A stretch of DNA of 64,000 nucleotides. Source: Anaerolineae bacterium. GTDB taxonomy: Bacteria > Chloroflexota > Anaerolineae > Aggregatilineales > UBA3940. Where the stretch lies: the NCBI GenBank assembly GCA_016926255.1, contig JAFGOY010000053.1, positions 1 through 64,000 on the forward strand, given 5' to 3'. This document shows, piece after piece, positions 48,299 through 52,166 of this stretch (within the stretch, counting starts at the first letter, position 1; each line of letters opens with the position of its first letter). The translations under genes and the position numbers were made by a program. Below the pieces are notes generated by a model. The model had not been told where the DNA came from, made no database searches, and saw only the letters and a list, made by a program, of their open reading frames with translations.

Positions 48299-48327
48299 TT
48301 GACAAACACCCACACAACGTTTATCAT
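48299..48327 (+). promoter_or_regulatory. Strong promoter at the head of the structured-RNA array
   Basis: TTGACA (48299-48304), exactly 17 bp, and TATCAT (48322-48327) make a near-consensus sigma-70 promoter pointing into the array. I saw no comparable promoter between it and the Ro gene, so the array may be one long precursor. The roughly 200 bases before it (48098-48298) hold nothing I can assign. Confidence 0.75.
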
Positions 48328-48333
48328 GTTACC

Positions 48334-48429
48334 TGCCTAAGCCTTATAGCGTAGTAAGCGATCCACCCAGAACAGAAGTCGTGCCATTTGATGGCAATTT
48401 CTGTTACCAACCTGGGGGATTTTTTATTT
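48334..48429 (+). ncRNA. Short leader RNA ending in an intrinsic-terminator-like hairpin
   Basis: After the promoter, a long stem forms from CCCAG/CTGGG (48366-48370 with 48412-48416), AACAGAA/TTCTGTT and TGCCAT/ATGGCA. It is followed by GGATTTTTTATTT. This is either an independent RNA of about 95 bases or an attenuator that controls entry into the downstream array. Confidence 0.5.
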
Positions 48430-48459
48430 CCCCACAACACACAATTCAATAAACAACGG

Positions 48460-48530
48460 GCGCAGAGGCGACGCCTGACGATACTTCGACTGAAAATCGC
48501 AAAGCGTCGGGCAAAGTTTTCCCCCTGCGC
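48460..48530 (+). ncRNA. Y-RNA-like unit 0 (compact, no tRNA module)
   Basis: The outer stem GCGCAG/CTGCGC continues through GG/CC after a mismatch. The inner stem GCCTGACG/CGTCGGGC is 8 bp with one G-U. ACTTCG lies 14 bases after GAGG, exactly as in units 1-4, 6 and 7, and the 3' side reads TTTTCCCCCTG. It shares the core of the repeated units but has no T-arm, so it is about 71 bases long. Confidence 0.55.
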
Positions 48531-48598
48531 GCCGGGAGTAAATGCCGATGCGGTGCGGGCAAACAGCACCAATCGATGAGCCAGGCAGGAGAACAACC

Positions 48599-48832
48599 GT
48601 GTATCGCAAACACACAGACGAAAAGAACAACGCATTATCGACCAAGCGACCAAGCGAAATGGTCGAGTGGTTTGCGATGCCAGAGATGGACTTGCTCCCG
48701 GTCGGCACGGTTGCCCCCGCGAGTTATCGCCACCTGATAGATGTCGATGGCTGCGATAGTGAGCAGCAGGCATCGCTCATCGATGGGAGCAGCACCCTCC
48801 GCACGAAAAGAGCCGGACCCGGCGCACACTGA
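48599..48832 (+). CDS. Small hypothetical protein inside the RNA array
   Basis: A 77-codon ORF starts at GTG with GGCAGGAG about 8 bases upstream. The product includes EMVEWFAMPEMDLLPVG and a basic C-terminus; it has no signal peptide, membrane segment or recognised domain. An ATG at 48542 is in frame but lacks a ribosome site. It could be a real small protein linked to the RNA array, or chance. Confidence 0.35.
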   Translation: MYRKHTDEKNNALSTKRPSEMVEWFAMPEMDLLPVGTVAPASYRHLIDVDGCDSEQQASLIDGSSTLRTKRAGPGAH

Positions 48833-48855
48833 TACGCCAACCGGCCCCGCACACA

Positions 48856-48935
48856 AAGCCTGTGCGTGGAAGATCGAGCGGAGTGACGGCCAGAGCAAGG
48901 GCACTTCGCAGTATCTTCGGCGCACAGGCTTTTTT
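48856..48935 (+). ncRNA. Stem-enclosed RNA ending in a U-run
   Basis: AAGCCTGTGCG (48856-48866) pairs perfectly over 11 bp with 48921-48931. A GAAGAT/ATCTTC stem lies inside, and six Ts follow immediately (48930-48935). It also contains a CACTTCG stretch like the motif in the Y-like units. It could be another unit with its own terminator, or a terminator after the small ORF. Confidence 0.45.
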
Positions 48936-48949
48936 GCTGCGTCGAACGC

Positions 48950-49027
48950 GGCGGTGTGTGAGGGGCACAGACTCTCGACACCTGTAATCAGGTATCGAGA
49001 GGTGCAGGTTCGAATCCTGAAACCGTC
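48950..49027 (+). ncRNA. tRNA-like element with extended anticodon arm
   Basis: GGCGGT/ACCGTC forms a 6-bp acceptor-like stem (one G-U). TGTG/CACA with an AGGGG loop resembles a D-arm. CAGG-TTCGAAT-CCTG is a standard T-loop on a 4-bp stem. In place of a normal anticodon arm there is a long hairpin, CTCTCGA/TCGAGAG enclosing ACCTG/CAGGT, with only a 4-base loop (TAAT). It cannot decode as a normal tRNA, so it is a tRNA mimic or decayed tRNA. Confidence 0.5.
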
Positions 49028-49717: not shown

Positions 49718-49862
49718 ATGTAAAGGTGCCGTCAGAGGTTCCTTCGAGAATCGTTTACCGTTAGGTATTGCAGGTTCGAATCCTGTCATTCCGGCAAGCC
49801 GGAATGTGGCGGAATTGGCAGACGCTGACGACAAACCATCGCTGGCAGCTTTCCCTCTACAT
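49718..49862 (+). ncRNA. Y-RNA-like unit 3 (type B)
   Basis: The outer stem ATGTAAAGG/CCTCTACAT pairs at 8 of 9 positions. The motif is CCTTCG. The tRNA module is permuted: T-arm GCAGG-TTCGAAT-CCTGT, acceptor stem CATTCCGG/CCGGAATG closed by a short loop, then a tRNA-Leu-like D-arm, GCGGAATTGGCAGACGC. The 3' side again has TTCCCTC. Confidence 0.7.
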
Positions 49863-49906
49863 CCGGTGAAGAAAACGGAGCAACACAGTTCGACTATGGA
49901 AGTACG

Positions 49907-50039
49907 GACACAGAGGTACAGCGAGGAGCTACTTCGCCTTTCACGCGGAAGATGTTGGTTCGAATCCAACCGCCCCCACAGCGGGGGTGTAGCTTAACAG
50001 GTAGAGCATCTCAGCTTCTTGCGCCATTCCCTCTGTGTC
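49907..50039 (+). ncRNA. Y-RNA-like unit 4 (type A)
   Basis: Outer stem GACACAGAGG/CCTCTGTGTC is perfect. The inner stem pairs at 11 of 14 positions, with ACTTCG 14 bases after GAGG. The module is an almost ideal permuted tRNA: T-arm GTTGG-TTCGAAT-CCAAC, a 7-bp acceptor stem CGCCCCC/GGGGGTG closed by ACAGC, then TA and D-arm GCTTAACAGGTAGAGC. The anticodon arm is replaced by the long Y stem. Confidence 0.78.
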
Positions 50040-50053
50040 TCGATTGAAATCGA

Positions 50054-50161
50054 ATATAGAGGTGCCTGCTGGGGGCTACTTCGGATAAATGGCAGACGCC
50101 AGAGCGGGTTCAAATCCCGCATATGTTTAACCATATACCTCCAGCGCTTTTCCCTCTATAT
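50054..50161 (+). ncRNA. Y-RNA-like unit 5 (type B)
   Basis: Outer stem ATATAGAGG/CCTCTATAT is perfect and differs from units 1-4 by compensating changes. The inner stem is GCTGG/CCAGC plus flanking pairs. ACTTCG is present, 15 bases after GAGG. A Leu-like ATGGCAGACGCC precedes T-arm GCGGG-TTCAAAT-CCCGC, then ATATG/CATAT forms a short closed stem. No D-arm follows, so it resembles unit 1. Confidence 0.7.
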
Positions 50162-50219
50162 ATTGGAATAATTCGTCGCTGACAAATCAGGAGAAAACAC
50201 AGTTCAACAACAGCAGTAC

Positions 50220-50344
50220 GGACACAGAGGTGTCCGGTGGAGTTACTTCGAAAATTGGTTTCTGTTGGTTCGAATCCAACCGCCTCCACCGGCGGCGCAG
50301 ATCGACGGCAAGAGCAGTACTTTCTACGCCTTCCCTCTGTGTCC
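50220..50344 (+). ncRNA. Y-RNA-like unit 6 (type A)
   Basis: Outer stem GGACACAGAGG/CCTCTGTGTCC is a perfect 11 bp. ACTTCG lies 14 bases after GAGG. The T-arm is GTTGG-TTCGAAT-CCAAC, then CCGCC/GGCGG forms a closed stem and a degenerate D-like stretch, GACGGCAAGAGC. The 60 bases before it resemble those before unit 4 (shared AGTTC and AGTACGGACACAGAGG). Confidence 0.68.
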
Positions 50345-50360
50345 TATCGAAGAAGCAAAC

Positions 50361-50512
50361 ATGTCGAGGTGCCGTCCGGGGATACTTCGGGACGATAAGG
50401 CTGCGGGTTCGAGTCCCGCCATACCTTCGGGGTATGTAGCTCAACGGGCAGAGCATATCGCTAAATCCCCGGACACCGGGTCCGGCATCGCCGATGGCCC
50501 TTCCCTCTACAT
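50361..50512 (+). ncRNA. Y-RNA-like unit 7 (type B)
   Basis: The outer stem ATGTCGAGG/CCTCTACAT has one mismatch. The inner stem GTCCGGGGAT/ATCCCCGGAC is a perfect 10 bp, with ACTTCG between. The module is permuted: T-arm GCGGG-TTCGAGT-CCCGC, acceptor CATACC/GGTATG closed by TTCGG, then TA and D-arm GCTCAACGGGCAGAGC. An extra CATC-GCC-GATG hairpin lies in the 3' strand. It ends 59 bases before the Ro gene. Confidence 0.75.
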
Positions 50513-50571
50513 ATTTCTTACATGAAGTACGGTCGAAATACGGCATTGAGATTTAGAAAGGAGGCTAAACC

Positions 50572-52166
50572 ATGACCCGTATTCTTGACAGGTTCAACCT
50601 GAAGCGCAATCCATATGCCCGCGCTAACGGACTCAACCCGGAAGGATTTCCATCCTTCACGCGGTCACTCGAAGAGGCATACATCCAGGTGCTGCTGACC
50701 AATACGCTGACCGGCACCTTCTATGCGACGGAGAGTCAGCTGCTTGACGAGTCTCTGAAACTGCACGCGGAGATTGCACTGACCGATCCGGCATTCATGG
50801 CGCGGGCAATCGTATATGCACGGCGTCAGGGCCTGATGCGCCTCCAGCCGGTGGTCGGGCTGGCGTATCTCGCCAAAGCCGATCTCGCCCTGTTTCACCG
50901 GGTCTTCCCGGAGGTGATCCTCACCCCCGGCGACCTGACGAGCTTCGTCGAGATTGTGCGCGGCGGCGTAGTGCCGGGCGGCATGGGCCGCAGCATCAAG
51001 AAGGCGATCAACGGCTGGATCAACGGCCTGAGCGAGTACCACGCGATCAAGTATGGCACGGGCGGACAGGGTTACAGTCTGCGCGACGTGCTGCGCCTGA
51101 CGCACCCGAAGCCGCCGACCGAAACCCAGGACGCGATCTTCCACTGGCTGGCCGACCGGGAAACCTGGCTCGAGGCTGAGGGAAAGCACGCGCTCACCCC
51201 GCAGATCGACGCGTTCGAACGTCTCAAGCAGGCTGGCGGCAATGGGGATCAGGTGGAAGCCCGGCAGTTGATCGAAGAGGGCCGCCTGCCCTACGAAGTG
51301 GTGACCGGCGTGATCGGGCTGGACTTCGAGACGTGGCGGGCACTGATGCAGCAGATGCCCTACTTCGCGCTGCTGCGTCACCTGAACACGCTTCAGCGGG
51401 CCGGGGTGCTCAAGCACATCGACAGCGCGAAATATGTCGCCGGGCGGCTCAACAACGCCGACGCGCTGCGCAAGGCACGTGTGCTGCCCTTCCGCCTGTA
51501 CATGGCCTACCGGATGTTCGATCCGCGAAACCGCGCCGAACGGAAGGTCGCCGATGCGCTGGTCGAGGCACTGGAGGCCTCTTTCGCCAACATGCCGGAA
51601 CTCGGCGGCGAAGTCGCCATCGCGCCCGATGTCAGCGGGAGTATGTCCGGGGGGATCGCCGGGCAGCGTGGTAAGACGCGCTACATCGACATCGCCGGGA
51701 TTTTCACGGCGGCGCTGCTCAAGGCATCGGGTGGCGCGATCATCCTGCCTTTCGAGACCGATGTTGTAAAGATCAAACTGTCGGCGCACGACAGCGCGAT
51801 GACCACCGCCGACCGGCTGGCGAAGATCGGCGGCGGCGGGACGGCAGTCAGCGCACCGGTCAGCTACCTGCTCGATAAGCGGATCAGGGTGGACACGTTC
51901 ATCGGGATCACCGACAACATCGAGTGGGCGCGGGACCAGTCGGGGCGACACGGGTTCCTGCCGACGACGAGTACCGGCAGAAGATCGCGCCGGACGCGCA
52001 GGCGTTCCTGATCACGATTGCGCCTTACCGGAAGGCCATCGCGCCCCCGGAGGCCAGCGGTATCCACTACATCTACGGGTGGAGCGAAACGGTGCTGACC
52101 TACATCAGACTGACGATCAACGGCCTCGCCGGGCAGGTCGAGGCGATCCGCGAGATGGAACTATAG
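50572..52166 (+). CDS. rsr: Ro60/Rsr-type TROVE-VWA RNA-binding protein (apparent frameshift near 51961)
   Basis: About 531 codons, the length usual for Ro60/Rsr. Residues 1-345 form a TROVE HEAT-repeat ring (FYATESQLLDES, GMGRSIKKAINGWINGL, GYSLRDVLRLTHPKP). A VWA domain with an intact MIDAS follows: DVSGSMS (about 353-359), GGGGTAVSAP, FIGITDN. Frame 0 ends at 52011 in unrelated residues. The expected tail, DEYRQKIAPDAQAFLITIAPY and later YGWSETVLTYI, continues one frame over to 52166. One missing base near 51961 explains this. AAAGGAGG precedes the ATG. The RNA array lies directly upstream. Confidence 0.9.

Follow-up and report, generated by a model that had tools for sequence, protein, structure and literature searches.

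An array of candidate YrlA-type Y RNAs beside a Ro60-type gene in an Anaerolineae bacterium

Bacterial Y RNAs, which imitate tRNA, are known mainly as one or two copies in the few species studied. What, then, is encoded in front of the Ro60-type gene of an Anaerolineae bacterium (assembly GCA_016926255.1, contig JAFGOY010000053.1), where the + strand gap between a leuB-like gene, which ends at 48047, and the Ro60-type gene (50572-52011) holds eight stem-enclosed units? The window, that is, the whole stretch of DNA analysed, comprises positions 1 to 64,000 of the contig, and coordinates without a locus label refer to it. The genome measures 4.6 Mb, and the Ro60-type gene next to the array is its sole TROVE gene; by this gene, the nearest named relatives are Chloroflexota, including an Anaerolineae bacterium. 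We conclude that the region very probably encodes an expanded YrlA-type Y RNA family for the Ro60-like protein 59 bases downstream. The units and the gene are listed here with scores from a covariance model of the units, R1 (described below), and from the Rfam YrlA model.

48460-48530, + strand: unit 0, short Y-type unit without a tRNA domain (R1 37.9 bits, outside the model seed)
49448-49556, + strand: unit 1, Y stem, T-arm and hairpin, without a D-arm (R1 78.8 bits)
49575-49701, + strand: unit 2, Y stem and permuted tRNA body of T-arm, acceptor and D-arm (R1 99.7 bits)
49718-49862, + strand: unit 3, Y stem and permuted tRNA-Leu-type body (R1 84.2 bits)
49908-50038, + strand: unit 4, Y stem and permuted tRNA body (R1 122.9 bits; YrlA 36.7 bits)
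50054-50161, + strand: unit 5, Y stem, T-arm and hairpin, without a D-arm (R1 77.3 bits)
50222-50342, + strand: unit 6, Y stem and permuted tRNA body (R1 92.8 bits)
50361-50512, + strand: unit 7, Y stem and permuted tRNA body, with an extra hairpin on the 3′ side (R1 69.9 bits, outside the seed; YrlA 48.7 bits)
50572-52011, + strand: Ro60-type gene (TROVE and vWA), frame broken near 51965, with similarity to about 52166 in another frame

An earlier note on this DNA had described eight stem-enclosed units (48460-48530 and 49448-50512) built on one plan. All of them were re-measured and the description stands: a strict search for the plan found seven places in the 64-kb window (unit 0 was missed), compared with none in 60 dinucleotide shuffles, both strands being searched. 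The outer helix, P1, comprises nine base pairs (N5-GAGG/CCTC-N5) in each unit, with exceptions in unit 3 (AAGG, with one A-C mismatch), unit 7 (one mismatch) and unit 0 (deviating at the 3′ end of P1); the GAGG/CCTC ending claimed earlier thus holds generally, but not in unit 3. Inside P1 there is a short internal loop, with 4-5 nucleotides on the 5′ side and about seven on the 3′ side, the latter ending in TTC, and this is followed by a second helix, P2. The first base (C) of a YTTCG motif lies 15 nucleotides past GAGG, or 16 in unit 5. The note had called this motif a near-invariant ACTTCG, but it reads ACATCG in unit 2 and CCTTCG in unit 3. A T-arm is present in seven of the eight units, as had been stated. 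In five (units 2, 3, 4, 6 and 7) it precedes a closed acceptor-like hairpin, which is followed by a D-arm. In units 1 and 5 there is only the T-arm with a hairpin, and unit 0 has none of the three. The tRNA bodies are not all of one type: in unit 3 both the D-arm and the acceptor are those of tRNA-Leu, unit 7 is Ala/Thr-like, and a Glu-type body is found in one unit of a related locus, L028. The units fold as independent closed modules.

Covariation was measured in an alignment, A2, of ten sequences, six of them units of the window and the remaining four taken from two further Chloroflexota. Over P1, P2, the T-arm, the acceptor and the D-arm, 90.5% of the cells are paired. Double changes occur in 60 cells, compared with 20.5 (standard deviation 3.5) after shuffling and no more than 17 in the slid controls, and all five helices contribute. 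P1 pairs in 98.9% of its cells and shows changes on both sides at all five outer pairs. These results bear out both the compensating outer-stem changes reported in the note and the covariation in homologues that it had looked to. R1 was built from the ten A2 sequences, with units 0 and 7 outside the seed; unit 7, whose P2 3′ strand is misplaced by MAFFT owing to the extra hairpin, was kept out as a test. Both left-out units are recovered, unit 7 at 69.9 bits and unit 0 at 37.9 bits, and R1 finds no match elsewhere in this genome beyond the array at an E-value of 0.001.

For the relatives, we compared five close TROVE loci (L028-L032) plus further loci at the level of the order and the phylum. 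Arrays stand beside TROVE in four of the five close loci (L028, L030, L031 and L032), and units are also found beside TROVE in Herpetosiphon-family genomes and L034. R1 finds homologous arrays next to TROVE in L028, L030, L031, L032 and L038, in keeping with the earlier expectation that a covariance model would reveal them in relatives, here Chloroflexota. The unit plan is repeated next to TROVE in lineages at 55-70% Ro identity, and arrays of 2-8 units, their number varying among species, are common beside Chloroflexota TROVE genes. The note had taken the family to be an expanded and possibly undescribed form. The eight copies are real, but the array is less exceptional than supposed, given these other arrays and the tandem copies in actinophages.

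In a tree of TROVE proteins, the window protein, L028-L032, L034 and the Herpetosiphonaceae form one clade (clade A, support 95/99), and a canonical clade is supported at 100/100. Units with the canonical motif GCCGNNG...GGTTAYC occur at L038 (five R1 matches), L064 (three), L066 (three), L065 (two), L037 (two), L063 and L067. This motif is confined to loci of the canonical clade, and in clade A the GAGG-type stem is found repeatedly; the divergent Ro clade therefore has a divergent Y stem as well, which amounts to a natural co-evolution experiment. Two side observations belong to these loci. At the end of the L028 array there is a 33-nucleotide remnant (L028:3179-3211) consisting only of an outer GAGG/CCCTC stem. 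The nematode family ceN72-3_ceN74-2 of Rfam gives a match beside TROVE in L038 (42.9 bits, cut-off 38 bits), and scores just under the cut-off beside TROVE in L064, L065 and L067 (34-37 bits).

The claim that the array leads into a TROVE-vWA gene is sound. The Pfam cut-offs are exceeded for both domains (TROVE, 67.7 bits against 23; vWA_Ro60, 46 against 27.7), and a search with a profile of the clade picks up Ro60 of human and frog as well as Deinococcus radiodurans Rsr, with E-values of 5e-41 to 3e-35. The predicted structure (mean pLDDT 74) matches Ro60 (1yvp, 22% identity) and D. radiodurans Rsr (2nvo) with a probability of 1.00. His187 of human Ro60, which is essential for Y RNA contact (PMC4030889), aligns with a histidine that is invariant in the clade. 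The NCBIfam equivalog model for Rsr (NF041674) gives 109.1 bits, against a cut-off of 900. The rsr-yrl-rtcBA arrangement was not found: RtcB is encoded in the genome, but on another contig (C62) and not adjacent to the Ro60-type gene. A PNPase is also encoded (970 bits).

How might such an array work? We propose that it is transcribed and processed into separate RNAs, and that the two ends of each RNA would form a Ro-binding stem. On this stem would sit a tRNA body module with its 3′ and 5′ halves swapped (T-arm, closed acceptor stem, D-arm), predicted to be full in five of the eight RNAs, reduced in two and absent from one, and apparently drawn from different tRNA types (Leu in unit 3, Ala/Thr in unit 7). 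Since the putative Ro-binding stem is common to all eight RNAs and the exposed module is not, the Ro ring could take the stem and leave the modules to present different surfaces to enzymes recognising tRNA or structured RNA; one Ro protein would then form several different particles via different adaptors. In RYPER, Ro holds the Y stem of YrlA and the tRNA-like module reaches PNPase (PMC8394870). By analogy, PNPase may be a partner here, and the modules may serve as tethers or confer specificity. With eight RNAs per Ro protein carrying different tRNA bodies, the selection of partners by a tRNA mimic becomes testable.

Several observations weigh against this reading. In L029, the closest-branching relative, the upstream sequence available for the Ro gene, 1.1 kb, shows no units. 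The canonical Ro-binding motif does not occur in the window or in any of the clade-A relatives, and no bulged C was seen in P1. The Rfam YrlA model (RF02553), which also matches two L028 units, scores units 7, 4 and 2 at 48.7, 36.7 and 23.1 bits (E-values of 1.3e-8, 3.8e-5 and 0.32), and no window unit reaches its gathering score of 69 bits. The Ro60-type reading frame breaks near 51965 in the assembly, with the stop of the open reading frame at 52011, while the relatives have intact frames; the break is either an assembly error or real. Transcription, processing into separate RNAs, binding to Ro and a role as tether or in specificity are inferred from sequence and predicted structure.

The alternatives depend in part on what else lies in the gap:

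48299-48327, + strand: sigma-70-like promoter, TTGACA-N17-TATCAT (consensus match only, 11/12)
48855-48938, + strand: long hairpin followed by T6, a terminator-like end or a further small RNA (folding z = -5.8)
48950-49028, + strand: degenerate unpermuted tRNA-like element with an extended anticodon arm (19.1 bits, E 0.0075, with R2, the model of unpermuted units described below; z = -3.2)
49135-49218, + strand: tRNA-Ser(TGA), divergent second copy
49223-49312, + strand: tRNA-Ser(GCT), divergent second copy
49371-49444, + strand: tRNA-Asp(GTC), divergent second copy

The three tRNA genes, whose other copies are located elsewhere in the genome, agree with the note's description of an array mixed with tRNAs. 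ARAGORN also calls a tRNA-Arg(TCG) at 49439-49522, which shares positions with unit 1 and tRNA-Asp; we rejected it as spurious. The hairpin at 48855-48938 is very stable and encloses GGCACTTCGC. One strong promoter had been proposed for the whole array. The promoter-like site is there, but such sites number one against 1.8 expected from shuffling, and a single transcript is unproven since the hairpin and T6 separate unit 0 from the other units. The spacers upstream of units 4 and 6 are alike, which points to duplication.

We consider it improbable that the array is a decaying or phage-derived tRNA cluster, in which duplicated tRNA genes were broken up beside the Ro gene and the shared stems are functionless leftovers. 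Three real but divergent extra tRNA genes, a degenerate tRNA-like element and a broken TROVE frame are what such decay might leave behind, and phage Ro genes do sit inside tRNA clusters. However, conservation is among the highest in the parts of the units that are not derived from tRNA (P1, P2 and the 15-nucleotide distance to YTTCG), these parts covary, and the plan recurs beside TROVE at the Ro identities given above. A cis-acting leader, with the array as one structured, attenuator-like 5′ region controlling transcription or translation of the Ro gene and no separate RNAs, seems to us very improbable. It would suit the position of the units, all on the coding strand and ending 59 bases before a start codon with a good ribosome-binding site, and the one promoter-like site far upstream, but it sits badly with independent closed modules joined by mostly unconserved spacers, with a unit number that differs between species, and with the position of units in some phages, where they follow the Ro gene. 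That the units are permuted tRNA genes, as occur in algae and archaea, spliced at the outer stem into real tRNAs is extremely improbable, for although the tRNA 3′ half precedes the 5′ half in units 2, 3, 4, 6 and 7, there is a long P1/P2 helix in place of the anticodon arm, and ordinary tRNAs are already encoded in wide variety by the genome.

If the array encodes Y RNAs, then the relatives also bear on where their tRNA bodies come from. Unpermuted units, several of them with an encoded CCA, are found at L032:4989-5928, at L031:5807-5960 and in the Herpetosiphon loci L056-L061. Their order is 5′ acceptor strand, D-arm, P2, TTCCTC, short loop, GAGG, P2, YTTCG, T-arm and 3′ acceptor strand; as read from their sequence, they are tRNAs with a Y stem in place of the anticodon arm. 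The Rfam tRNA model matches several of them with 43-54 bits over 107-149 nucleotides. In an alignment of the unpermuted units (A4), double changes occur at all seven acceptor pairs and 98.9% of the cells pair. The corresponding model, R2, scores 95-122 bits in each of the seven f42 genomes that have a clade-A Ro gene. Ordinary tRNAs also score, up to 58 bits; R2 was therefore dropped as a phylum-wide census, and the only matches used were those exceeding 90 bits, every one of them from family f42, and long ones beside TROVE.

The unpermuted form is not restricted to clade A. Four canonical-clade loci (families f46, f67, f69 and f75) combine unpermuted bodies with the canonical Y stem, and again all seven acceptor pairs covary. 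L064-L066 have 2-3 unpermuted copies each upstream of TROVE and L067 has one, with GCCGNNG...GGTTAYC at the anticodon position; the copies of L066 end in ACCA. Among 24 unpermuted units, eight have NCCA exactly after the acceptor stem, compared with about 0.4 expected by chance. Acceptor stems covary in both topologies. Because both topologies are present in both Ro clades, the permutation switched at least two times on the TROVE tree, unless gene transfer explains the distribution. We tentatively propose that Chloroflexota Ro proteins use a tRNA-derived adaptor repertoire in two interchangeable circular forms, one with its ends in the Ro-binding stem (the window, L028 and L030), the other a tRNA whose 5′ and 3′ ends are the natural ones, in some cases with an encoded CCA, and whose anticodon arm has turned into the Ro-binding stem (Herpetosiphonaceae and others). 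Like a tRNA, the latter form could undergo processing, CCA addition and perhaps charging, and it would suggest that YrlA arose from tRNA via permutation inside tandem arrays. Direct material on this origin is offered by sister lineages that combine one Ro-binding stem with either a permuted or an unpermuted body. The unpermuted form was not found described in a literature search that did not extend to the principal papers on bacterial Y RNAs, and we claim no priority for it; for the same reason, the priority of the multi-copy form could be checked only in part.

How does the array compare with known systems? YrlA carries dihydrouridine and pseudouridine from tRNA-modifying enzymes. Near the Ro genes of three actinophages, R1 finds Y-type units that have no Y RNA annotation: three in tandem in Atuin (L148:5904-6332), two in Sixama (L150:6532-6870) and one in Myrna (L147:3744-3883), intermixed with tRNA genes in the first two. 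They differ from the window array in their lower copy number (three at most), their phage context and their Ro proteins, which fall outside the window's clade; a search of viral contigs with the TROVE protein found no relative. The protein encoded in the window resembles Rsr and Ro60 (2nvo, 1yvp) in its TROVE HEAT ring and vWA domain, the His187 equivalent and the DVSGSM motif of the vWA domain, but it shares only about 22% identity with them in the structural alignment and belongs to a clade of its own with the Herpetosiphonaceae proteins. The unpermuted Y-tRNAs of the relatives have T-, D- and acceptor arms like those of the window units and also lie beside TROVE, and those of the Herpetosiphonaceae share the window's Y stem, whereas those of f46, f67, f69 and f75 have the canonical one; in both, the RNA ends in the acceptor stem instead of the Y stem, which is closed by a loop at the place of the anticodon arm.

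The closest parallel is YrlA itself (RF02553; PDB 6CU1), which superposes on tRNA as a circular permutation (PMC11472068). Like YrlA, the window units have an adjacent Ro/Rsr gene, a terminal stem made from the 5′ and 3′ ends and, in five of the eight, a T-arm, a closed acceptor stem and a D-arm in circularly permuted order. The YrlA-like character claimed in the note is upheld by this arm order and by the Rfam similarity, though the scores fall below gathering. The differences lie in the eight copies, compared with two (yrlB and yrlA) in Salmonella, and in the Y stem, which is of the form GAGG-N15-YTTCG/TTCCCTC and lacks GCCGNNG. On sequence grounds, the units are a divergent, expanded variant of the YrlA kind and probably work as YrlA does, but we do not assign them to RF02553 because of the gathering score. 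Since the order of T-arm, closed acceptor stem and D-arm is that of YrlA, the kind of RNA is already known; what is unusual is the copy number, the mixture of tRNA bodies and the pairing of a divergent Ro clade with a divergent Y stem.

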